Assembly (NCBI RefSeq): GCF_030580675.1
Contig: NZ_JAUQUB010000002.1
Coordinates: 1-64,000 of the forward strand
From: Antiquaquibacter soli
GTDB taxonomy: Bacteria > Actinomycetota > Actinomycetes > Actinomycetales > Microbacteriaceae
Length of the DNA stretch: 64,000 bases
Reading direction: 5' to 3'
The first letter of the stretch is position 1. The number at the start of each line of letters is the position of its first letter. This document shows, in pieces, positions 3,165-55,517 of the stretch. The notes under the pieces were generated by a model. It worked only from the letters and a program-made list of their open reading frames with translations. It ran no database searches and was not told where the DNA came from. The translations under genes were made by a program, and so were the position numbers.

Positions 3165-6100
3165 ATGAACAGCTCGCTTCGGGCATCCAGCACCGGTCGG
3201 ACTCCGAGGCGGGGCAGCCGGCTCGCCGGGGCGGGGCGGCGCGCGCTCGCCCTCGTCGGCACGGTCGCGGTGCTGCTCTCCGGTTTCGTCGGCGGACTGC
3301 CGGCGGCGACGGCCGCGGGCTCGGGCGTGCTCACGGTGGGCATCACTCCTGTCGACTACGCGACCGGCGACCCGCAGTCGACGGCGGGCACCGGCCAGCA
3401 CGGCGACCGCGTCGCCTACCGCGTGACGTTCACGTGCGCCGTCGCGGCGTGCGAGAACACGACGGTGCAGCTCGCTCCCTCGCAGCCGGACCCGAACGGC
3501 CTCGCCGCGCAGAACCCGTTCGCGGCGGCTCGCGAGACGCTCCTCAAGTACGAGACCTGGACCCCGCCGACGACGGGTGGCACGATCTCGGGCACGGATG
3601 CCACGGGCAAGCTCGTGAGCCTCGGCACGCTCGCCCCGGGTTCCGGCGGCACCTTCCTCGTCGTCTACAACTGGACGGACACCGGCACCGCGAACGTCAT
3701 CTGGGCGGCGCAGTACTACCCGGACGGCTTCGACATCGCGAACTCCGCGACGATCTCCTCGCCGACCGCCGTCGAGGACCGAGTGGCGACGGCGCCGACC
3801 GTCGAGTGGCAGAACACCCTGCCGAGCCCGGCGATCGCCACGAACCTCACCAATGGCGCGAGCGTCGGCCCGAACGTCAACGTCACGTACCAGATCGGCA
3901 TGGGATCCGGTGCCCTCATCCCCGCGGGCAGCGGCCGCATCGCGGGCTTCGCGCGCCTCCAGGCGGCGGGCGGCTGGTACGTCTCCGAGAAGCTCCCCGC
4001 CGAGGCGGTCTTCGTGTCGGCGAGCGACGGCGGCTTCTACGACGCAGCGACCCACTCGATCATCTGGAACCGCGGCTACGACGCGACCGGCACCTACACG
4101 GGCCCGGTCGCCGACGCCGGCGGCGGTTTCGGCTCCGCCTCGTTCGCGCAGTGGTCGCAGCAGCGCGGCTACAACCACCGCACGGTGGTGGTCTCGTTCC
4201 CCGCGGCCAACTTCGCCGAGGCCGACGAGACCGGCTGCAACTTCGAGAAGTCGGTGACGTTCTCGGAGAGCGTCGACGTGACCTACCTCGACTCCGCCGC
4301 GACCGAGAAGTCCGCGACGAACAGCAAGTCGATCGTCGTCGCGTGCTGGGACCCCTTCGGCCGTGGTGGCGCCGCCAAGGACACCACCAACGACGGCGGC
4401 AACGCGAGCAACCGCGGCGTGTACGTCCCGCCGTCGGTCACCGGGATGACGTGCCCCTCGAGCGGCACGGACGACTGGGGCCGCGCCTGCACTCCCGGCC
4501 AGCCGCTCGCCGCGTTCTCGCCCAACGTCAAGTACTGGGAGGTCTACGGCTACAACCGCGGCAACGTGCCCGGCGTCGTGACGATCGTCGACAGCGACCT
4601 GGACAAGCCCGGGATGCCCGTCAACAGCATCCAGATGTCGCCGAGCGCGACGGTCGACTACCAGTACCAGTGCGGCACGTCCGCCCCCGTCTCGGCGACC
4701 TTCACCGGCGCGACGGTGACGCTCACCACGACCCAGCAGGCCAACGGCTGCCGCATCATCTCGGCCGAGGTGACGAGCGGCACCCTGGCGGCTGGCAACA
4801 TCCGTCCCACGGACAATGGCACCGGAACGCCGCAGCGCGTGCGCTTCGTGTACGCCGTGGCGCCGGGGACTGCGGTCACCGGAGTCTCCGTCACCAACAC
4901 GGCGAACGTGACGGTCAGCTACCCGGCCTATCCCGAGCTCGACGACGTGGTCGTCGCGCCGGTCTCCCGCACGGCGACCCTCGTGGCGCAGCCCAAGGTG
5001 ACGACCGTGCCCGCGATCGCGGCATCCATCCCCGCGAGCCCCGCGGTACAGGGCGGCGGCCAGGCGGTCCCCGGCAGCTCGGTCACGTTCAGCGTCGGCG
5101 GCGCGACCAACAACATCCCGCTCGACTCGGCGTTCGTGCCGCAGTACGTCTTCATCGCGCCCGTCGGGTGGAGCGTCGTCGAGGGCAGCGCGGCATTCAG
5201 TGGCACCGTGCCCGCCGGCGCGATCGTCAGCTACCGCACGGTGACGATCGGCGGCGTGGACCGTCAGGCGGTCGTGGCCACGTGGCCCGCGGGCACCGAC
5301 TTCGGCCGCAATGTCGTCCTCCCGGCGATGACCGTCGTCGCGAAGCCCACGTTCGCCGTCGCGGCGGGCACGTCGAGCGTCTTCGACTCGTGGCTCGGCG
5401 ACTCGGCGCACTCGTGGGACAACACCCAGGCGACCCGCACGGGGGCCATCCAGGACACCGCCGACGTCGACGGCGACGGCACCACGACCGAGTGGTTCTC
5501 CCGCACGACCGGCTCGGTCCTCGTCTCCTCGGCGGACGGCATGACGATCCTCAAGGAGATCTGCCTCCCCGACGAGTCGGAGGCGGACGGCTGCGACTGG
5601 ATCTCCGACCCGGGCAACGCCGTCCCGGTCTCGACGGTCGCCGACGACATCCGCTACCGCGTCACCGTGCAGAACACCGGCAACACGAACCTCACCGGCG
5701 TCGTGGGCTACGACATCCTGCCGTACGTCGGCGACACGGGAACGACCGACTCGTCGGCGGCGACCCCCCGCGGCTCGGAGTTCGAGCAGACCCTCATCTC
5801 GGTGAGCGACGTGAGCTCGAACGTAACGCTCGCGTACTCGGCATCCACCCAGCCCGCGCGCCCGCAGGTCTACTCGGGCGGCGGCACCACGAATGACTGG
5901 TCGGCTTCCGCCGCCGGCAAGAAGGCGATCCGGATGACCGTCTCGGGATCGCTCGCGCCCGGCGCGACCGCGACCTTCCAGTACCTCGCCGAGGTCGGAG
6001 CGGGTGCGACCGCCGACGCGGTCGCGTGCAACTCGGTCGCCGTGGCATCCACGCAGATCGGCGTCCTCGAGCCGCCCGCCGTGTGCGCCGTCGCGACCGA

Positions 6101-46990: not shown

Positions 46991-47863
46991 ATGACGTTCA
47001 ACGACGATGCCCGGATCGACACGAGCAAGGTCAGCCGGCGCGGCCGCACCACCGGGATCGCCATCGGCGGTGGGGGCGGGTTGCTCGTCATCGGGCTGTT
47101 CATCCTGTCGCAGTTCCTCGGCGTCGACCTCACCGGGCTCGCGGGAGGACAGCAGCAGGAGCAGCCCGGCGAGAGCATCGGGTCGTGCACGGGCCAGGAT
47201 GCCAACGCCGATATCGACTGCCGCATCGCGGGCACCGCGGACTCCCTCGACACGTACTGGGCCGAGGAACTGCCGCAGTTCGGCGTCGACTACCGCACGA
47301 CGAACATCGTGCTCTTCGAGGGCCAGACCTCGACCGGCTGCGGCGGGGCGACGAGCGCCGTCGGCCCGTTCTACTGCCCGCCGGACGAGACGATCTACAT
47401 CGACACGAGCTTCTACGACGAGCTGCAGAGCCGCTTCGGGTCCTCGGGCGGGCCGCTCGCGCAGATGTACGTCGTCGCGCACGAGTGGGGTCACCACATC
47501 CAGAACATCTCCGGGATCATGAACGGCCTCGATCTCCAGGACACGGGCCCGACCTCCGACGCCGTGCGCCTCGAGCTGCAGGCGGACTGCTTCGCGGGCG
47601 CGTGGGTGGGGGCGGCGCCGAGCATCCTCACCGACGACGGCGTGCCGTTCCTCGAGCCCGTCACCGACGCGCAGATCGCGGATGCCCTGAGCGCGGCCTC
47701 GGCGGTGGGCGACGACCGCATCCAGGAGTCGACGACCGGACAGGTCACTCCCGAGGCGTGGACCCACGGATCGAGCGAGATGCGCCAGCGCTGGTTCACC
47801 GCGGGCCTGAAGGGCGGCCCCAACGCGTGCAACACCTTCGAGGTCGCGGGCGACCAGCTCTAG
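46991..47863 (+). CDS. YpfJ/KPN_02809-family neutral zinc metallopeptidase
   Basis: A 290-residue membrane-anchored protein. A basic N-terminus is followed by one hydrophobic segment (about 24-45), a Gln-rich linker and the zincin-like domain. The zinc motif is VAHEWGHHIQN (HExxH), with the conserved third-ligand region LELQADCFAG. Four cysteines suggest disulfides outside the membrane. The substrate is unknown across the family. It ends in a CTAG shared with the convergent glycosyltransferase, so the two stop codons overlap by 4 bp. Confidence 0.85.
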   Translation: MTFNDDARIDTSKVSRRGRTTGIAIGGGGGLLVIGLFILSQFLGVDLTGLAGGQQQEQPGESIGSCTGQDANADIDCRIAGTADSLDTYWAEELPQFGVDYRTTNIVLFEGQTSTGCGGATSAVGPFYCPPDETIYIDTSFYDELQSRFGSSGGPLAQMYVVAHEWGHHIQNISGIMNGLDLQDTGPTSDAVRLELQADCFAGAWVGAAPSILTDDGVPFLEPVTDAQIADALSAASAVGDDRIQESTTGQVTPEAWTHGSSEMRQRWFTAGLKGGPNACNTFEVAGDQL

Positions 47864-48660
47864 CGGCGGGCGGCGCGACGCAGCGCGGCGACGACGCGCA
47901 TGCGTGCACGCCACAAGGGAGGTGTCGCCGAGGTGCGCTCGGCCGGCGGCAGCTCAGCGACGAACGATTCGAGTGCACGGTAGAGCTCGGGCCGGGAGCG
48001 CGGATTGGTCCAATTGCCGTGAGTGTTAGCGTCGTGCCAGCGTTTGACGTATACCGCGTTGGTCGCCGCGAACGAGCCGCGGGTGAGCATCCGTACCGCC
48101 CACAGCACGTCGGACCACTGATCGCCAGGGATTGCGCGCGGGAGTTCGACCGCCTGTTCGCGGCGGAACACCCCGCGATAGGCGGCTCCCAGCAGCTGCA
48201 CGTCGCCGGACGAGACCTCGGCGAGGGCGCTGCGAACGCGGTCGGCCGCGGAGTCGCGCTGGAACGCGGGCGAGACCGGGATCTCGCGTCCACCGTCGGC
48301 CGAGCGAACCGAGCCGAGTGCGAGGATCGCGGCAGGCTCCGAGTCGAGCGCTCTCTCCCCGGAACGCACCCAGTCCGCATCGATGTCGTCGTCGTGCGGC
48401 AGCCACATGAAGAACTCGGTCGTGCTGCGCTGCCGCAGCTCCTCGCAGTGCGGCACCCATCCCGGCTCTATCGGACGGGTGCCGAGCCACTGCACGTCGA
48501 GGTCCGCGAGCCGCTCGCGGAGGACCTCGAGGCTGTCGTCGGAGGCGAGCGGATCGGAGACGATGATGCGCGCGACGCCCTGAAGCCGACGAACGTTCCG
48601 CTCGACGACGTCGAGCCATTCCGAGGAGCGGAAAAGAGGAATCGCTACGGTGGTCCGCAC
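47860..48660 (-). CDS. Family 2-type glycosyltransferase
   Basis: A 266-residue GT-A-fold protein. The nucleotide-binding start is TTVAIPLFRSSEWLDVVERN, and the metal-binding acidic motif is WLPHDDDIDADWV. The C-terminal acceptor part is short and has no membrane helix. It probably adds a sugar to a surface glycan or a small molecule. The GTG start at 48660 lies 5 bp after the stop of the FAD-oxidoreductase gene upstream, so the two form an operon. Confidence 0.75.
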   Translation of the reverse strand: MRTTVAIPLFRSSEWLDVVERNVRRLQGVARIIVSDPLASDDSLEVLRERLADLDVQWLGTRPIEPGWVPHCEELRQRSTTEFFMWLPHDDDIDADWVRSGERALDSEPAAILALGSVRSADGGREIPVSPAFQRDSAADRVRSALAEVSSGDVQLLGAAYRGVFRREQAVELPRAIPGDQWSDVLWAVRMLTRGSFAATNAVYVKRWHDANTHGNWTNPRSRPELYRALESFVAELPPAERTSATPPLWRARMRVVAALRRAARR

Positions 48661-48665
48661 CGTCC

Positions 48666-49826
48666 TCAGCCCGTCACCTCGAGCGCAGTCTGTACGGCCT
48701 CTTCGGCGGCGAGCGGTGCCGAGGCGAACTTGAAGCTGGAGGGGACGATGACACGACCGATCACCGTTGTGCCGAACTCCGAGCGGCTGTGCAGCGCCGA
48801 GTCGATCGCGTCGATGTCTGTCGGACCATGGCCGACGATGAGTCCGCCGAACAGCTCGCCCGACGTCGCGCCCTCGGGCAGTACGCCGACGGATCTCAGG
48901 GCGTCGAGCTGCCGTGCGACGAGAGCCGACGCGAAGTCCGGGTCGGCGATGCGCTCCTTGAGTGCGTAGGTCTCCGCGGACGGGACGAGAGCGAACTCAT
49001 TGCTCAGTCGGCCCTCCGGATACCACGAGGCGTAGGTGTAGTCGGCATGGCCGACGACGTCGCCGTAGGGCCCTTGCACGAGCGTCACAGGTCGGTGCTC
49101 GTCACGGACGGGGATGCGGATGGCCGTCTTGAGGCGGTAGTTGCGCGTCAATCCGGCCGCCGACGGCAGCAGAGCGAGCTGCTGATCCCAGGCCGCGTTG
49201 ACCGCGAGGTCGTACTCGAGCACCGAGCCGTCGGAGAGGTGCACGCCCGCGCGCCCGTCTACCGTGTCCAGCGAGCGCGCCTCGGTGCCCAGACGGAGGG
49301 TGATGGCCGGGTTCGACTCGACCGCACCGACGAGGAGTTCACCGAGGCGTACGGGGTCGACCGCGATCTCGTCCGTGTGGAAGATCGGCAGTCCGGTGCG
49401 CTCGTCAACGCCCGGCGCGGGGTCGACGAGCCGATCGAGAGGCCGACCCAGGTAGGTGGCTCCGTCGGGGACGAGCTCGTTCATGCGCGAGTAGATCAAG
49501 GCCAATTCGTCGGGGGTGGCGAGGCTGTCGGGCATCACCAGGTAGTCGAACGGCAGGGTCGACATGCTGCCCCAGTCGATTCCGGCGCCCACGGCCCGCT
49601 CGAGCACGCGACCGAAGGCGAGAGCTCCACGGAGCATGACGTCGTGCGTCGCCGGGGTGCCGAGCGCGAAGATCGGCCCGAGGTGCACCTTTCCCTCGTT
49701 CACCGTGCTCGTCTGGGTCCAGAGCCCGGGCTCCTTCTCGATGAGGTCGACGCTCCATCCTCGATCAGCCGCCAGGAGGGCCGTGGTTGTTCCGAGAAGG
49801 CCGCCGCCTACTACCGCGATATGCAT
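48666..49826 (-). CDS. FAD-dependent oxidoreductase (DAO family)
   Basis: A 386-residue flavoprotein starting MHIAVVGGGLLGTTTALLAA, a Rossmann FAD motif, with the acidic ribose-binding residue in VDLIEKE. The remainder (VDPVRLGELLVGAV, LAVNAAWDQQLALL) fits the D-amino-acid oxidase/L-2-hydroxyglutarate oxidase fold. The ATG at 49826 follows GAGGA, and a TAGGAT -10 is at 49856-49861. It is transcribed with the glycosyltransferase. It lies divergent from the RiPP peptide gene; whether it contributes to that pathway is unknown. Confidence 0.78.
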   Translation of the reverse strand: MHIAVVGGGLLGTTTALLAADRGWSVDLIEKEPGLWTQTSTVNEGKVHLGPIFALGTPATHDVMLRGALAFGRVLERAVGAGIDWGSMSTLPFDYLVMPDSLATPDELALIYSRMNELVPDGATYLGRPLDRLVDPAPGVDERTGLPIFHTDEIAVDPVRLGELLVGAVESNPAITLRLGTEARSLDTVDGRAGVHLSDGSVLEYDLAVNAAWDQQLALLPSAAGLTRNYRLKTAIRIPVRDEHRPVTLVQGPYGDVVGHADYTYASWYPEGRLSNEFALVPSAETYALKERIADPDFASALVARQLDALRSVGVLPEGATSGELFGGLIVGHGPTDIDAIDSALHSRSEFGTTVIGRVIVPSSFKFASAPLAAEEAVQTALEVTG

Positions 49827-49855
49827 GAATTCCTCAGCTCGGGGGTCGTCTCTCG

Positions 49856-49861
49856 ATCCTA
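49856..49861 (-). promoter_or_regulatory. -10 box of the FAD-oxidoreductase/glycosyltransferase operon
   Basis: TAGGAT on the minus strand, about 29 nt before the ATG at 49826. Confidence 0.45.
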
Positions 49862-49945
49862 GCGGCGTCATGAATTGCCCACCGGGCACTCCCTTTCGAT
49901 AGGCGCTGTCTGGCGCTCATGCATAAAAGCACGAAAGGAATGCCC

Positions 49946-50029
49946 ATGGTGAAGTCATCGATCCTCTCGCCGCGCTCGAACTCGTCGTTCGCGGGTCGGC
50001 AGTCGAAGCAGAGCTACGGCCCGAAGTAG
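49946..50029 (+). CDS. Candidate RiPP precursor peptide (27 residues)
   Basis: A 27-codon gene placed directly before a YcaO gene. It has an excellent Shine-Dalgarno (AAAGGA at 49934-49939) 6 nt before the ATG at 49946. The peptide is basic and Ser-rich. It begins MVKSSILSPR, continues with SNSSFAG, and ends QSYGPK. It has seven Ser, two Pro and no Cys or Thr. In-frame ATGs at 49919 and 49940 would lengthen it to 36 or 29 residues, but only 49946 has correct spacing. Serines could become oxazolines or oxazoles through the adjacent YcaO, and the prolines could be cleavage sites for the operon's S9 peptidase (inference). I recognise no known RiPP class in its sequence. Confidence 0.62.
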   Translation: MVKSSILSPRSNSSFAGRQSKQSYGPK

Positions 50030-50036
50030 CACGACC

Positions 50037-50066
50037 GGGGCGGGCGCGGGGTCGCGCGTCCGCCCC
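50037..50066 (+). terminator. Hairpin between precursor and YcaO genes (likely attenuator)
   Basis: A 12-bp stem, GGGGCGGGCGCG (50037-50048) with 50055-50066, includes one G-T pair and has a 6-nt loop. It starts 8 bp after the peptide stop codon. With no T-tract it would be a partial terminator, giving excess precursor over enzyme mRNA. The rest of the 101-bp gap shows no coding sequence. Confidence 0.55.
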
Positions 50067-50130
50067 TCGGCGTGCGCGCGACGGGTGACCGGCGCGGTGG
50101 CGCGACAGCAGTACGGGGCGAGTTCGAGGG

Positions 50131-51912
50131 GTGACGGATATCACGGTGACGATGCAGGATGACGCGGTCGAGAGCGGCTACCGCGCGGTGTGCAGGGAGC
50201 TCGGGCTCGAGCCGGTCGAGCGAGGGCCGGGCGAGGGCGAGCGGGGCGGGCATCCCGTCGTCCGGTCGCTCGCCGAGGCGCGGGCGGCTCGGGGGCGCGA
50301 CACCGTGCTCGTGCTCGACGAGGCAGGCATGACGACCGTCGCGATCGTCGCCGGCGACTGGTCGAGCGGATGCCCGGACTGCCTGCACTCGAAGGTGCTC
50401 GCTCTCGCCCATTACTACTCCGGCGATCGCGACGATCCGCTCGACGTGGAGGCGGCGATCGCCCTCGTGGCCCGCGTGCGCGACCGCCACGGCGTCGTGC
50501 TCGCCCTGACGGACGGCTACCGCGCCCAGAACTGGTCGGTGTGCGTCGCCGTCCCCGGGTGCGCGGGCTGCGCGACGAGGGAGCGCTCGCCCGACGACCT
50601 CGCCCGTGCCCTCGGGCAGACGGTGGCGGAGCCTGCGCCGACATCGACCGTCGCGGCACCGGCTCCCGCCCCGCTCGAGCACCCCGCGATCGAGCACGAC
50701 CCGACCGCCGGTCTGCGCGGCGCGAGCGGAGCCGAGTTCGTCGCACGCAATCGCGCCGCGATCGGCTTCGCCTCGATCCTCGGCAACCCCGTCGCCGTCG
50801 AGGAGGAGCTGGAGGTGTCCCTGCTCAACGCGCCCGTCTTCGTCGCGGGCGACCCGGAGGCGCACGAGGTCGCGGGAGGCAAGGGAGCCGACGTCGAGCA
50901 GTCCCTCGCGAGCTGCGTCGGCGAGGGGCTCGAGCGGTACCTCCTCGCGGGCGCCTACCGGCTGCCCGCCACGATCGCCACCCGGGAGGAGCTGGGGGAT
51001 GCCGCGTGCTCGCCCACTGTCGAGTTCGGCTTCCCCGCCCGCGACGCGCACCCGGGTGTCGAGCGCTACCGCGACGACCTCGAGATCGAGTGGGTGCTCG
51101 CCGACGACCTGCACACCGGGGAGCGCCGCTTCGTTCCCGCGAACCTCGTGTACTGTCCGTACTTGCCGGGGGGCGGGGCGCCCGCGATCTCCGTCGGGAG
51201 CACGAACGGCGCCGCGACCGGGGCGACCGTCGCCGATGCGACCCGCCAGGCCCTGCTCGAGTCGGTCGAGCGCGACGCCTTCTGGTACTACGCGCGCACG
51301 GGCATCCCGCCGCTCGCCGTGTCGCAATCGTGTCTGCCGCGGGACGTCGAGGTCGGGATGTCGGTGATGCGCGGGCAGTTCTTCACGCACGTGCTCGAGA
51401 ACCCGTTCGGGGTGCCCGTCGCCCACGTCACGTTCGAGTCCGACGTGCTCGAGGGCGCTCGGTCTGCTCGAGGCACCGGGGCGACGCCGCGGCTCGAGTC
51501 GAGCATCCGGAGGGCGTACGCCGAGTGCATGCAGATGTACCACTCGCTCTCCACCGGCATCGCGGTCGACCGGGTGACGACGGACATGAGGCACGCGTGG
51601 TTCACGGGCCGGTCGCGCTCGCTGTTCCCCGCCCTCTTCACCCGTGGCCGCCCGCCCGGCGGAGGCGTCGAGGCGCTGCCGGGGGTGGACCCCGCGCTCG
51701 AGATCCTCGCGTCGGCGAGGGAGCAGGGGCTGAGCGCCTACCGCGTCGTCCTCGCCGAGACCGATTCCTTCGCCGTCGTGAAGGTGCTCGTCGGCGGAAT
51801 GGCCCTCATGGATGCCACGTACTTCGAGTACGGGCACCGCTTCCACGACCTCGCCCGATCCCTCGGGCACCCCGAGCCGCGACTGCGCTACACCGAGTCG
51901 CTCTTCATGTAA
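50131..51912 (+). CDS. YcaO-family cyclodehydratase (TOMM/azoline-type) with N-terminal zinc/leader-binding domain
   Basis: A 593-residue protein in two parts. The N-terminal ~160 residues carry two Cys pairs (SGCPDC, 81-84; GCAGC, 144-147), as in the zinc-binding docking (C-protein/SagD-like) part of azoline RiPP enzymes. A Pro/Ala linker follows. The YcaO domain (about 195-593) has the ATP/Mg motifs SCVGEGLERY (E265, E268) and QALLESVERD (E377, E380), plus GSTNGAATGAT. YcaO enzymes activate backbone amides with ATP, mostly to cyclise Ser, Thr or Cys. The C-terminus (HPEPRLRYTESLFM) lacks the PxPxP ending common in azoline enzymes, and no TfuA or dehydrogenase gene is adjacent. The GTG at 50131 is the first possible start; ATG 50152 is the alternative. 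Confidence 0.85.
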   Translation: MTDITVTMQDDAVESGYRAVCRELGLEPVERGPGEGERGGHPVVRSLAEARAARGRDTVLVLDEAGMTTVAIVAGDWSSGCPDCLHSKVLALAHYYSGDRDDPLDVEAAIALVARVRDRHGVVLALTDGYRAQNWSVCVAVPGCAGCATRERSPDDLARALGQTVAEPAPTSTVAAPAPAPLEHPAIEHDPTAGLRGASGAEFVARNRAAIGFASILGNPVAVEEELEVSLLNAPVFVAGDPEAHEVAGGKGADVEQSLASCVGEGLERYLLAGAYRLPATIATREELGDAACSPTVEFGFPARDAHPGVERYRDDLEIEWVLADDLHTGERRFVPANLVYCPYLPGGGAPAISVGSTNGAATGATVADATRQALLESVERDAFWYYARTGIPPLAVSQSCLPRDVEVGMSVMRGQFFTHVLENPFGVPVAHVTFESDVLEGARSARGTGATPRLESSIRRAYAECMQMYHSLSTGIAVDRVTTDMRHAWFTGRSRSLFPALFTRGRPPGGGVEALPGVDPALEILASAREQGLSAYRVVLAETDSFAVVKVLVGGMALMDATYFEYGHRFHDLARSLGHPEPRLRYTESLFM

Positions 51913-51919
51913 GGACCCC

Positions 51920-53140
51920 ATGCGCCGCGCCTACGCGTTCATCATCCTGTCGTCCGCCGGAGTCGCCTGCTTCAGCGTCGTCGACGTCGTCTACTTCACC
52001 GCGGCGGGATACACCCTCGCCTTCGTCGGCCTCATGACCGCCGCCTTCAATCTCGCCGTCGCCGCCTCCGAGCTGCCGTTCGCCGTGCTCTTCGACCGCT
52101 ACTCCACGAAGCTCGCGCTCCAGGCCGGAAACCTCATCCGGATGGTTGCCTTCGCACTGTTCTTCCTCAACCTCAGCCCCGAGACGCTCATCCTCGCCCA
52201 AGTGCTCGCGGGCCTCGGCGTCGCCGCCACGAGCGGCACCGCGAACGCGCTCGTCGTCAACGAGATCCAGTCGACGACGTCCGACGCGATGGCGGCGGCG
52301 TTCGGGCGCATCAGCTACCTCGTCGCGGCAGCAGGCATCGTCGGGGGAGTCGTCGGCGTCGTGCTCTACTCGGTCGAGCCGCGCGCCATCTGGCTCGGCG
52401 CGATCGGGTTCTTCCTCGCCGCGGCCGCCGTCATCTTCGGATTCCGAGACACCCGGGCCGAGCGGCCGGAGGACTCGTGGCGCCAGTACGGCGCGAAGGT
52501 CCTCCGAGTGGTCCGGATGCCCGCCGCCCTGCTGCTCGTGCTCGCCAACGCGAGCGCGGTCGCGCCCTTCCTGCTGTGGCAGGTGAAGTTCGACTCCTAC
52601 TCGATCGGGTTCGTGCTCGTCGGCTACCTCATCCTCAACGGCGCCACGTTCCTCGGGCCGCTGCTCATGTCGAGGTTCCGGGTGCGCACCGCCCACGTCG
52701 CCGCGGTCGCGATCGCGAACGTCGCGGCAGTGGTCGCGTTCGGCCTGGCGACCGAGGTCTGGTCGATCGCCATCTCCTTCTTCGTGCACGTCATGCTCCA
52801 CGTCGTGCTCGTCGCCCTCGCCTCCGGTCTGTTCCACTCGGGGGTCGAGAACTCGGTGCGGGCGACCGCCGGTTCGGCGATCTCGCTCGCCGACTCGCTC
52901 GTCGTCGCGGCGCTCGCGCCGCTCGTCGGCTGGATCGGGCAGTCGTTCGGGCTCGGCTGGGGCATCGCCGTGTCGTGCGTCACCTACGTGCTCGTCGCGC
53001 TGCTCTCGCTCTCGCGGCGCAATCGCGCGGCGGCCCGCGCGGCGGCCCGCGCGGAGGATGCAGCGGAGCATGCGGCGGAGGACGCGGCGGACGCTGCGGC
53101 GAAGGGCATGACGGATGACTCGGCGGAGGGCCGCGCATGA
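51920..53140 (+). CDS. MFS transporter of the RiPP operon
   Basis: A 406-residue membrane protein with about 12 hydrophobic segments starting RRAYAFIILSSAGVACFSVV. The loop LFDRYSTKLALQAG occupies the motif A position. The last ~35 residues are a charged Ala-rich tail (AEDAAEHAAEDAADAAAKG). The ATG at 51920 is 7 bp after the YcaO stop codon, with AAGGA at the junction, so it is translated from the same mRNA. It probably exports the modified peptide and confers self-protection (inference). It overlaps the next gene by 4 bp (ATGA). Confidence 0.82.
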   Translation: MRRAYAFIILSSAGVACFSVVDVVYFTAAGYTLAFVGLMTAAFNLAVAASELPFAVLFDRYSTKLALQAGNLIRMVAFALFFLNLSPETLILAQVLAGLGVAATSGTANALVVNEIQSTTSDAMAAAFGRISYLVAAAGIVGGVVGVVLYSVEPRAIWLGAIGFFLAAAAVIFGFRDTRAERPEDSWRQYGAKVLRVVRMPAALLLVLANASAVAPFLLWQVKFDSYSIGFVLVGYLILNGATFLGPLLMSRFRVRTAHVAAVAIANVAAVVAFGLATEVWSIAISFFVHVMLHVVLVALASGLFHSGVENSVRATAGSAISLADSLVVAALAPLVGWIGQSFGLGWGIAVSCVTYVLVALLSLSRRNRAAARAAARAEDAAEHAAEDAADAAAKGMTDDSAEGRA

Positions 53141-53628
53141 CCGACGCCCGACGCATCCTCGCCGTCCTCGCCAATCCGCGCGCCCGCGAGGCCTACGCGC
53201 GAGTCGTGCTCGGCCACGCGACCCCGGAGCCGACGACCTCCCGCGAGCGTCGGGCGCTCGAGGCGCTGCTCGGCGCGGGTCTCGTCGAGCGGTCCGGCGC
53301 CGATGGCGGGTTCGTCGCGAGGGCCGAGCCGTTCGAGGAAGCGCTCGGCGCCCTGCCCCGCCCGGTGAAGCGCACCGGCGTCGACCGGTTCCTCACGGGG
53401 GAGCGCATCGAGCAGTACCCGGCGAATCCCGAGGCCCGGCTCGAGTTGCTCGAGTGGGTCGCATCCCGCGCGATCGCGGAGCACGAGGTGCTCGACGAGC
53501 GCGAGATCGGGGAGCGGCTCTCCCGGCACACCGACGATGTGGCGGTGCTCCGCCGCTACCTCGTCGATGCGGGGCTCCTGCTCCGCACTCGCTCGGGTTC
53601 GAGCTACAGCCGGTCTCTCGCGCCATGA
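53137..53628 (+). CDS. DUF2087-domain protein with N-terminal winged helix
   Basis: A 163-residue protein. The N-terminal part (RILAVLANPRAREAYARVVL, then LEALLGAGLVERSG) looks like an ArsR/winged-helix DNA-binding fold. The C-terminal ~75 residues match DUF2087: IEQYPANPEARLELLEWVAS, the acidic EREIGERLSRHTDD stretch and LRRYLVDAGLLLRTRSGSSY. DUF2087 often accompanies regulators. Here it sits inside a RiPP operon with ATGA overlaps on both sides, so it is probably the pathway regulator; a role in modification cannot be excluded. Confidence 0.78.
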   Translation: MTDARRILAVLANPRAREAYARVVLGHATPEPTTSRERRALEALLGAGLVERSGADGGFVARAEPFEEALGALPRPVKRTGVDRFLTGERIEQYPANPEARLELLEWVASRAIAEHEVLDEREIGERLSRHTDDVAVLRRYLVDAGLLLRTRSGSSYSRSLAP

Positions 53629-55517
53629 CCGGGCGGCCAGCACGCGACAGGCCGCTCGCCGCGGTGCTCTCGATCGAGCGCCGTCGCGCTGCGCGGCGGC
53701 TCGAGCGGCTGTCGGCTCTGCGCTCCGAGATCGAGCGCGAGGTGCTCGGCCGCTCCGGCCCCGTGGACGTCGTCGAGCCCGAGCGCCGCGGCCGGTGGTG
53801 GCTCGCCGCGCGCATCCCCGACGGGCGGGAGCGGGCGGTGCACGCGCGATCGAGTGCGGCGAGCGGGAGCATCCCGCCGACCGCCGACGAGTTCTGGGCG
53901 GCTCCGATCGAGGTGCTCCTCGACGAGTCGACGCTCCGGGGTCGCGCGAGAGTCGGCCGGCTCGAGTGCGCCCGCGACGGCGACCGTGTCGCCTACACCG
54001 TCGACCGCACCGGCTCGGAGCGGTTCGACCTCGTCGTCGGGGGTCGCCTCCGCCGCCGCGGCGTCGCGCCGGACTTCGTGCTCGCCGACGACGGGTCGAG
54101 CGTGATCGCCGTCGAACTCGCGGCCGACGGTCGACCGGCTACGGCCGTCGAGCTGGGCGCGTCCCGCGGGCGGCGCGAATTGGCGACGGAGCCGGATCCG
54201 GAGCGCTGGTTCGAGGTCTCGGCGGTGGGTGGCCGCGTCATCCTCGCGAGCCGATCCCTCGACGGCGACCGCCTCTCCCTTCTCGCGGACGACGGGCGCC
54301 CCATTCCCCTCCCCGTCGACGGCACGGATGCCCGCGCCCTCCCGCTGCCCGGCGACCGGTTGCTCCTGCTCGCCGACGGAAAGCTCTCCGAGTGGGCACC
54401 GGGCGCCGCGCCCCGACCGATCGACCTCGGGCTTCCGCCGGGAGCCTCCGTCGAGGGTGCCGTCACGGCGGGCGGCACGGTCGTGCTGCAGCTGCGTGTC
54501 GCGGGGGACCCGGTGCTCGCGTGGTTCGACGCGACCGCGACGGACGGCGGCCCCGCCCGCGTGGTGCTGCGCCGGCCGGCGCGACCGGGCGAGACTCTCG
54601 ACGTGCTCGGCGCGGACGGCGACGTCGTTCGCGGGGCGGTCACCTCCCTCGTGCTGCCGCCGTTGCGCTGGGAGTTCGACAGTGGCGACCGTGCCCTCTC
54701 CGTCGGTCTCGCGCCCCCTGCTCGCGGCCGGCAGCTGCGGCTGCGGGCGACGGGCGACGACGGCACGGGCATCCCGGTCACGATCGCCGTTCCGGACGAC
54801 GACCGCCCGGGCGAACCGCGGCCGCTCGTGCTCCTCGTCTACGGCGCGTACGGGGTGCCGTTCGAGGCGCGCTACTCGCCGGGCACGCAGTCGCTGCTCG
54901 ATCGCGGCGCCCTCCTCGCGATCGCGCACGTGCGCGGCGGTGGCGAGCTCGGCGCGGCCTGGCACGACGCAGCCCGCGGGCTGCGCAAGCACGTCTCGGT
55001 CGACGACTACCTCGCCGTCGCGCGCCACCTCGTCGACGAGGGCTGGACCCGCCGCGGGCTGATCGTCGCGCAGGGCTCCAGTGCCGGCGCCACCGTCGTC
55101 GGGTCGGCCCTCAACCGCGATCCCGCGCTCTTCGCCGGAGCGGTGGTCTCCGCGCCGTTCGTCGATCCGCTCGGGGCGCTGCTCGACGGCGGATCGGCGC
55201 TCGCAGCCGTCGACGTGCCCGAGTGGGGAGATCCGCGCACGGAGGCGGGGCACCGCGCCCTGCGTGCGCTCTCGCCCCTGCACGGGGTGCGCCTCGACGA
55301 GCGCTATCCGCCGGTGCTGGCGACGGCCGGCATCCACGATCCCCGCGCTCCCGCGCGCTCGGTGATCCGGTGGGTCGACCGCTTGCGCGAGGCGGGGTGC
55401 GACGCGACCCTGCTGCTCGACCCGGGCGGCCACGACGGGCCGACGAACCGCTCGGCCGAGCGGGAGCGGTTCGCGACCGAGCTCGCCTGGATGCTCGACG
55501 TGCTCGGCCTGGCCTGA
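53625..55517 (+). CDS. Prolyl oligopeptidase-family (S9) serine peptidase
   Basis: A 630-residue S9 peptidase. The N-terminal ~370 residues form a beta-propeller gate, and the C-terminal alpha/beta-hydrolase domain has GGGELGAAWHDAARGLRKH. The catalytic triad is probable S486 in QGSSAG, D572 in GIHDPRAP and H603 in GGHDGP. The nucleophile context (GSSAG rather than GGSNGG) is slightly unusual. No signal peptide is present, so it acts in the cytosol. The start overlaps the DUF2087 stop (ATGA). S9 enzymes cut short peptides after Pro or basic residues. The precursor has Pro at positions 9 and 26, so leader or follower removal is a reasonable role (inference). The FlaP-type leader peptidases of class III lanthipeptides are a precedent. 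Confidence 0.86.
   Translation: MTGRPARDRPLAAVLSIERRRAARRLERLSALRSEIEREVLGRSGPVDVVEPERRGRWWLAARIPDGRERAVHARSSAASGSIPPTADEFWAAPIEVLLDESTLRGRARVGRLECARDGDRVAYTVDRTGSERFDLVVGGRLRRRGVAPDFVLADDGSSVIAVELAADGRPATAVELGASRGRRELATEPDPERWFEVSAVGGRVILASRSLDGDRLSLLADDGRPIPLPVDGTDARALPLPGDRLLLLADGKLSEWAPGAAPRPIDLGLPPGASVEGAVTAGGTVVLQLRVAGDPVLAWFDATATDGGPARVVLRRPARPGETLDVLGADGDVVRGAVTSLVLPPLRWEFDSGDRALSVGLAPPARGRQLRLRATGDDGTGIPVTIAVPDDDRPGEPRPLVLLVYGAYGVPFEARYSPGTQSLLDRGALLAIAHVRGGGELGAAWHDAARGLRKHVSVDDYLAVARHLVDEGWTRRGLIVAQGSSAGATVVGSALNRDPALFAGAVVSAPFVDPLGALLDGGSALAAVDVPEWGDPRTEAGHRALRALSPLHGVRLDERYPPVLATAGIHDPRAPARSVIRWVDRLREAGCDATLLLDPGGHDGPTNRSAERERFATELAWMLDVLGLA

Follow-up and report, generated by a model that had tools for sequence, protein, structure and literature searches.

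The window analysed here comprises positions 1–64,000 of contig NZ_JAUQUB010000002.1 from Antiquaquibacter soli (coordinates are those of the window, + strand unless stated). It carries a compact operon in which a 27-codon peptide gene precedes genes for a YcaO enzyme, a major facilitator superfamily (MFS) transporter, a DUF2087 protein and an S9 peptidase (Table 1). A preliminary description had read this operon as a complete make-modify-cleave-export pathway for a ribosomally synthesized and post-translationally modified peptide (RiPP). The gene arrangement it reported was reproduced: an AAAGGA Shine-Dalgarno (SD) sequence stops 6 nt before the ATG of the peptide gene, and the four genes that follow on the same strand are tightly packed (gaps of 101 bp from peptide to ycaO, 7 bp from ycaO to MFS, and -4 bp at both MFS-DUF2087 and DUF2087-S9). 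The start of ycaO had to be corrected to the GTG codon listed in Table 1. A second in-frame ATG for the peptide gene is present at 49940, but the start at 49946 is favoured because the homologues in loci L010 and L011 are also 27 amino acids long. Each of the four larger proteins exceeds the cut-off of its own Pfam family (YcaO, 140 bits; MFS_1, 54; DUF2087, 67; Peptidase_S9, 142).

Table 1. Positions of the genes and features of the A. soli operon within the window.
Feature	Position	Strand	Remarks
Precursor peptide gene	49946..50029	+	ATG to TAG, 27 codons, MVKSSILSPRSNSSFAGRQSKQSYGPK; proposed leader, residues 1-18
Proposed core QSKQSYGPK	50000..50026	+	Starts after Arg18; predicted cleavage site
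Hairpin between precursor gene and ycaO, possible partial terminator	50037..50066	+	12-bp stem
ycaO	50131..51912	+	GTG start; Pfam YcaO match, residues 250-557; CxxC...CxxC region, residues 40-148; C-terminus ...ESLFM
MFS transporter, presumed exporter	51920..53140	+	Pfam MFS_1
DUF2087 protein, probable transcriptional modulator	53137..53628	+	Pfam match; 44-50% identical homologues in L015 and L011
S9 peptidase, optional member	53625..55517	+	GSSAG motif; catalytic domain closest to oligopeptidase B

Conservation of the precursor peptide

Eight distinct loci encode a YcaO enzyme of the same clade: the window, genome G602 (locus L010), Curtobacterium (L011), Actinomyces (L012), a mussel symbiont (L014), Leifsonia (L003), G1495 and G1584 (L055). 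In all eight, a short open reading frame (ORF) with a purine-rich, SD-like stretch lies at most 300 bp upstream of ycaO. The encoded peptides of 26–34 amino acids are MVKSSILSPRSNSSFAGRQSKQSYGPK (window), MIKSKVLSLKPHATFAGRQSKQSYGPR (G602), MKTTILAPRTNNTFVGRQAKNSYGPSQ (Curtobacterium), MLTGIIVKKSVPQVATRQSKNSYASN (G1495), MKNADLSDIIDEKANAKLVAPQSKNAYSGGTN (Actinomyces), MKKIIIAKNVKKDQRIGAFQSKNSYGFVK (symbiont), MINSDILDDVAAPQAATRQAGGYTTRQAGGYTTR (Leifsonia) and MKSNLFGKHNTSAGATRQAGGYATRQAGGYNAR (G1584), where several starts fall inside longer ORFs and were picked by SD sequence and alignment. The type-1 signature Q-[SA]-K-[NQ]-[SA]-Y occurs in six loci and a tandem RQAGGY in two (L003 and L055). 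The expectation that a conserved small peptide gene would accompany YcaO homologues, set in advance as a test, thus held at every locus.

Across the eight fetched stretches (5–64 kb), both motifs were found solely in the upstream peptides, and both were absent from 13 of 13 control loci (ten other YcaO loci and three same-genus regions). The longer motif Q[SA]K[NQ][SA]Y[GS] was derived from the window, L010, L011, L012 and L014, and the tandem motif from Leifsonia; in shuffled 400-bp upstream DNA the longer motif appeared in 0 of 2000 cases for each of the first four loci and in 1 of 2000 for L014. Two loci were recovered later. G1495 has Ala after the Tyr and fits six of the seven motif positions, which are the six used in the control comparison, and G1584 carries the Leifsonia RQAGGY twice. 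The G+C content of the loci ranges from 33% (symbiont) to 71.5% (window), and conservation of the precursor therefore acts at the protein level.

The core Gln and Tyr are kept in 8/8 loci. Arg precedes this Gln in six, with Pro in Actinomyces and Phe in the symbiont, and we tentatively place the start of the core at the Arg-Gln junction, mainly because the repeats of the two tandem loci begin there. The Lys after Gln-x is confined to the six type-1 cores. The preliminary description had called the precursor Ser-rich and Ser the modified residue. The first point is true of the window peptide (8 of 27 residues) but not of the family, as the Curtobacterium peptide has 2 of 27, and the second is not sustained by the relatives. 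Each type-1 core retains at least one of its two Ser residues, but either can be Ala (QA in L011, NA in L012), Ser is missing from the tandem core QAGGY, and QAGGYNAR, the second core of G1584, contains no Ser, Thr or Cys. Consistent with the earlier statement that the peptide fits no named precursor family, it has no match in Pfam or NCBIfam; the six type-1 peptides likewise lack NCBIfam matches, and the G602 peptide has none in the Protein Data Bank (PDB).

The YcaO clade and its enzyme

The seven members with an unbroken YcaO domain form a clade with tree support of 100/100 (two partial matches, L023 and L024, were left out of this tree, and L048 forms a long branch in it). Enzymes of this clade are rare in the samples searched, which overlap in their genomes, so that their counts cannot be added together. 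At 1e-10, YcaO matches were found in 6 of 299 genomes of the family, two of them in the clade (A. soli itself and G125). Matches were found in 2 of 396 genomes of the order (A. soli and G602), in 1 of 396 of the phylum (A. soli only) and in 3 of 27 of the genus, two of these being partial. Corresponding counts were 3 of 200 (one in the clade) for the family of the Actinomyces genome, 1 of 83 (the symbiont itself) for the order of the mussel symbiont, and 4 of 395 (three in the clade) for the family of G602. A pattern-based scan of contigs from 84,980 species confirmed 4 of 23 stretches, from Curtobacterium, Actinomyces haliotis, Leifsonia sp. CL147 (taken as one genome with G125 and counted once) and the Bathymodiolus thiotrophic gill symbiont. 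Plasmid sequences gave no tblastn match at 1e-8, and none of 88 pattern-fitting stretches from viral contigs was confirmed.

The A. soli enzyme has 593 residues. A short CxxC...CxxC region ahead of its YcaO domain resembles ThiF/E1 domains and is preceded by 39 residues that gave no reported match, although these were barely tested. An AlphaFold model built with 14 alignment rows (a 5-row model with pLDDT 49 was discarded) has a confident fold, in which 488 residues between model residues 40 and 593 align to LynD. In a PDB profile search the best match was MusD (7u58; E = 2.7e-29), followed by TruD (2.7e-27) and LynD (1.6e-25); with the window sequence alone, MusD ranks third. The enzyme shares with these fused cyclodehydratases a YcaO fold, preceded by what may be a ThiF/E1-like part, but differs in length (593 versus 775 residues), in its -FM end, and in precursors of 26–34 residues with no conserved Ser, Thr or Cys. 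With 39 residues ahead of the ThiF-like part, the enzyme also appears to lack a full leader-binding domain.

A proline-rich PxPxP C-terminus is a feature of YcaO enzymes that form azolines in thiazole/oxazole-modified microcins (TOMMs). The last two residues are -FM in all seven clade enzymes whose domain is unbroken, versus proline-rich ends (e.g. PHPFP, PLPYP) in six of the eight other YcaOs recovered; the remaining two end in ...AHPLA (L047) and ...PLPHA (L048). The TIGR03604 score is 113 bits against a cut-off of 219.25, and L003, L054, L055 and L014 also fall below it. Of the TOMM/azoline traits looked for, neither a conserved core Ser/Thr/Cys, nor a TIGR03604 score above cut-off, nor a proline-rich C-terminus was found. 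The preliminary description had listed no dehydrogenase, TfuA, radical SAM enzyme or second YcaO nearby, and this stands: the six window proteins scanned include no FMN dehydrogenase (the sole flavoprotein, encoded on the opposite strand, is an FAD oxidoreductase of the DAO family), no TfuA partner, as is typical of thioamidated RiPPs, and no radical SAM protein, and the genome has a single YcaO at E ≤ 0.001. In G602, N-terminal residues of the YcaO lie in another frame, across a six-G run (L010:1352-1474).

Neighbouring genes, hairpin and mobility

Downstream of ycaO, the window and six relatives (seven loci in all) carry an MFS gene. Curtobacterium retains 27 residues of the MFS protein (52% identical, E = 5e-4), joined to a ycaO that is interrupted by stops. 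This cluster, from Curtobacterium sp. VKM Ac-1376 (L011:5886-8049), is decayed, with precursor and DUF2087 genes intact. The symbiont and G1495 contigs stop at most 470 bp past the MFS gene, which leaves six loci in which the later genes can be counted. DUF2087 is present in three (window, G602 and Curtobacterium) and absent from Leifsonia, Actinomyces and G1584, and the S9 peptidase occurs in one, the window. The S9 peptidase was accordingly rejected as a defining or fixed part of the pathway. A genus-wide S9 search (E ≤ 1e-40) matched 12 of 27 genomes including A. soli itself, the other 11 at 41–42% identity and in the catalytic domain only. Oligopeptidase B cuts after Arg or Lys, and the nearness of the S9 protein to it therefore agrees with a site at Arg18|Gln19. 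A role for DUF2087 in the chemistry is not supported, and the protein is best read by analogy as a modulator, because the bottromycin DUF2087 protein BtmL modulates (raises) precursor transcription in a pathway whose transporter is also an MFS protein (as excerpted from PMC7113386). The four operon proteins had no PADLOC match at 1e-3.

The hairpin noted previously between the precursor gene and ycaO is present, but folding in this GC-rich stretch does not exceed that of shuffled sequence (z = 0.17). Six of seven relatives do outperform their shuffles at the same position (z = -2.6 to -7.7; for L014 the stretch folded begins within the peptide gene), the exception being L011 (z = -1.1). The hairpins, which look unrelated in sequence, may restrain ycaO expression relative to the precursor.

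The full enzyme is absent from 26 of 26 other genomes of the genus, and none of the genes from the glycosyltransferase-like gene to the S9 gene has a homologue in three 20-kb regions of the same genus that surround a neighbouring gene. DNA upstream of the operon gave short matches only, in 13 other genus genomes. In Leifsonia, the cassette comprises peptide, ycaO and MFS genes only and is flanked by a perfect 26-bp direct repeat (L003:1092-1117 and 4199-4224). The G1495 and G1584 cassettes are flanked by 13-bp repeats, of which 12 bp are common to both as reverse complements. No such repeat was found in the L012 and L014 flanks, where the longest match is 10 bp. The unit is a real, rare and probably mobile RiPP-type cassette.

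Other features were noted beside these cassettes. At 47860-49889, the minus strand of the window holds a glycosyltransferase-like gene (by eye) and a gene for the DAO-family FAD oxidoreductase; their GC3 is 84% versus 90–94% in the operon, and the three same-genus regions contain no homologues of them. The Leifsonia repeat falls at the 3' terminus of a gene that reads, by eye, as encoding a 2-oxoacid dehydrogenase E2, and the MFS protein takes its C-terminal end from the second copy of this gene terminus. The 13-bp repeats lie at L057:9356 and 12632 and, on the reverse strand, at L058 9186 and 12639 (common sequence TGAATAAGCCTC or its complement), and a transposase-like ORF (by eye) adjoins the L058 cassette.

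Proposed pathway and alternatives

An encoded precursor lies next to a modifying enzyme and is conserved across taxa in 8/8 loci, which gives good support to a real RiPP-type family built around a conserved precursor. We hypothesize, with a probability of roughly 0.8, that the operon belongs to an undescribed family of small RiPP-type cassettes, with leader-guided backbone modification by YcaO, a cut at Arg|Gln and export by the MFS protein. A leader of about 18 residues would bring the precursor to YcaO, which would use ATP to activate a backbone amide in a short core (8–11 residues) with a conserved Gln start and a conserved Tyr. In A. soli the oligopeptidase-B-like S9 enzyme could plausibly remove the leader at Arg|Gln, a task that would fall to host peptidases at the other loci. 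The MFS protein would send the product out of the cell, and DUF2087 would tune precursor transcription in loci having the gene. Of the pathway proposed originally, the RiPP-type unit and its precursor gene are retained, whereas Ser as target and S9 as fixed member are not.

Several observations weigh against this proposal. The clade is known from just eight loci, one of them decayed, and six of these defined the motifs and so cannot test them too. L012 and L014 have no Arg before Gln, the S9 peptidase is confined to one testable locus, and the window hairpin folds at chance level. For product, transcript and reaction, the case is built from sequence.

If the peptide were instead a regulatory upstream ORF acting as an attenuator, its position ahead of a hairpin in most loci would be explained. 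This seems very improbable, since the conserved residues gather near the C-terminal end, peptide type tracks YcaO type, two loci carry tandem copies of the core and the hairpins share no evident sequence. For a peptide that is a YcaO substrate, the nearest solved folds, being cyclodehydratases or their kin, together with the Ser retained in every type-1 core, would suit formation of oxazolines at Ser/Thr (-18 Da each), giving a linear azoline peptide without a dehydrogenase. We consider this route unlikely because neither core Ser is constant, the TIGR03604 score is low, the -FM ends depart from the proline type and the scanned window proteins include no FMN-type dehydrogenase. In mobilisin-type TOMMs, too, the fused cyclodehydratase is actinobacterial and the short peptide beside it is low in Cys, Ser and Thr, but these systems include a B protein that is missing here (compared by description, not sequence; excerpts of PMC4603692). 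The serine-oxazoline reading fits the conservation poorly, and an amidine or a scission would fit it better.

In the amidine route, the free Gln amine left by the Arg|Gln cut would attack a YcaO-activated backbone carbonyl to form a ring as in bottromycin, klebsazolicin and streptamidine. A conserved Gln at the proposed new N-terminus, a conserved Tyr and dispensable Ser make this a tentative candidate. Bottromycin clusters also combine YcaO, MFS, DUF2087 and precursor genes (excerpts of PMC7113386), but have two YcaOs versus one here and a radical-SAM methyltransferase not seen among the proteins scanned. Streptamidine (ami) resembles the present system in its YcaO-linked short precursors without Ser/Thr/Cys-rich regions, but has Fec-type and ABC transporters, a hydrolase and an ALV-containing motif (excerpts of PMC8442711), none of which was seen here: the proteins scanned include no Fec-type transporter, and ALV is absent by eye from the eight peptides. 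The route requires that the leader go first, yet only one locus has a linked peptidase, and the streptamidine study, in those excerpts, covered standalone YcaOs, whereas the present enzyme has an extra CxxC domain. Alternatively, YcaO itself might cleave Arg|Gln with ATP, much as MusD, which has peptidase activity (excerpts of PMC10885120), removes a C-terminal dipeptide. This would account for the repeated RQ junctions, the top rank of MusD and the absence of a peptidase from most loci. However, MusD works at the C-terminus, TruD and LynD score nearly equally, MusD falls to third with the window sequence alone and two loci lack the Arg, which leaves scission an improbable choice.

At somewhat less than even odds, the cassette represents a new RiPP class. 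Such a class would combine a YcaO that ends in -FM and has no leader-binding domain, non-azoline chemistry (amidine or ATP-driven scission) at an Arg-Gln junction and a Gln...Tyr core, with no need for Ser/Thr/Cys or a recognition domain, in a cassette of about 3 kb spread between phyla. No description of this family was found in the open literature searched, and the six core strings are absent from the papers of the open library searched; novelty extends that far.

YcaO enzymes build many antibiotics, and to our knowledge the reactions and substrates of most of them have not been established. The system described here is near minimal, with a 27-residue substrate, one enzyme and one transporter. 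Its conserved core, natural Ser-to-Ala swaps and tandem cores provide ready tests of which amide is attacked, and the same variants could show how a YcaO with no recognisable leader-binding domain locates its peptide.
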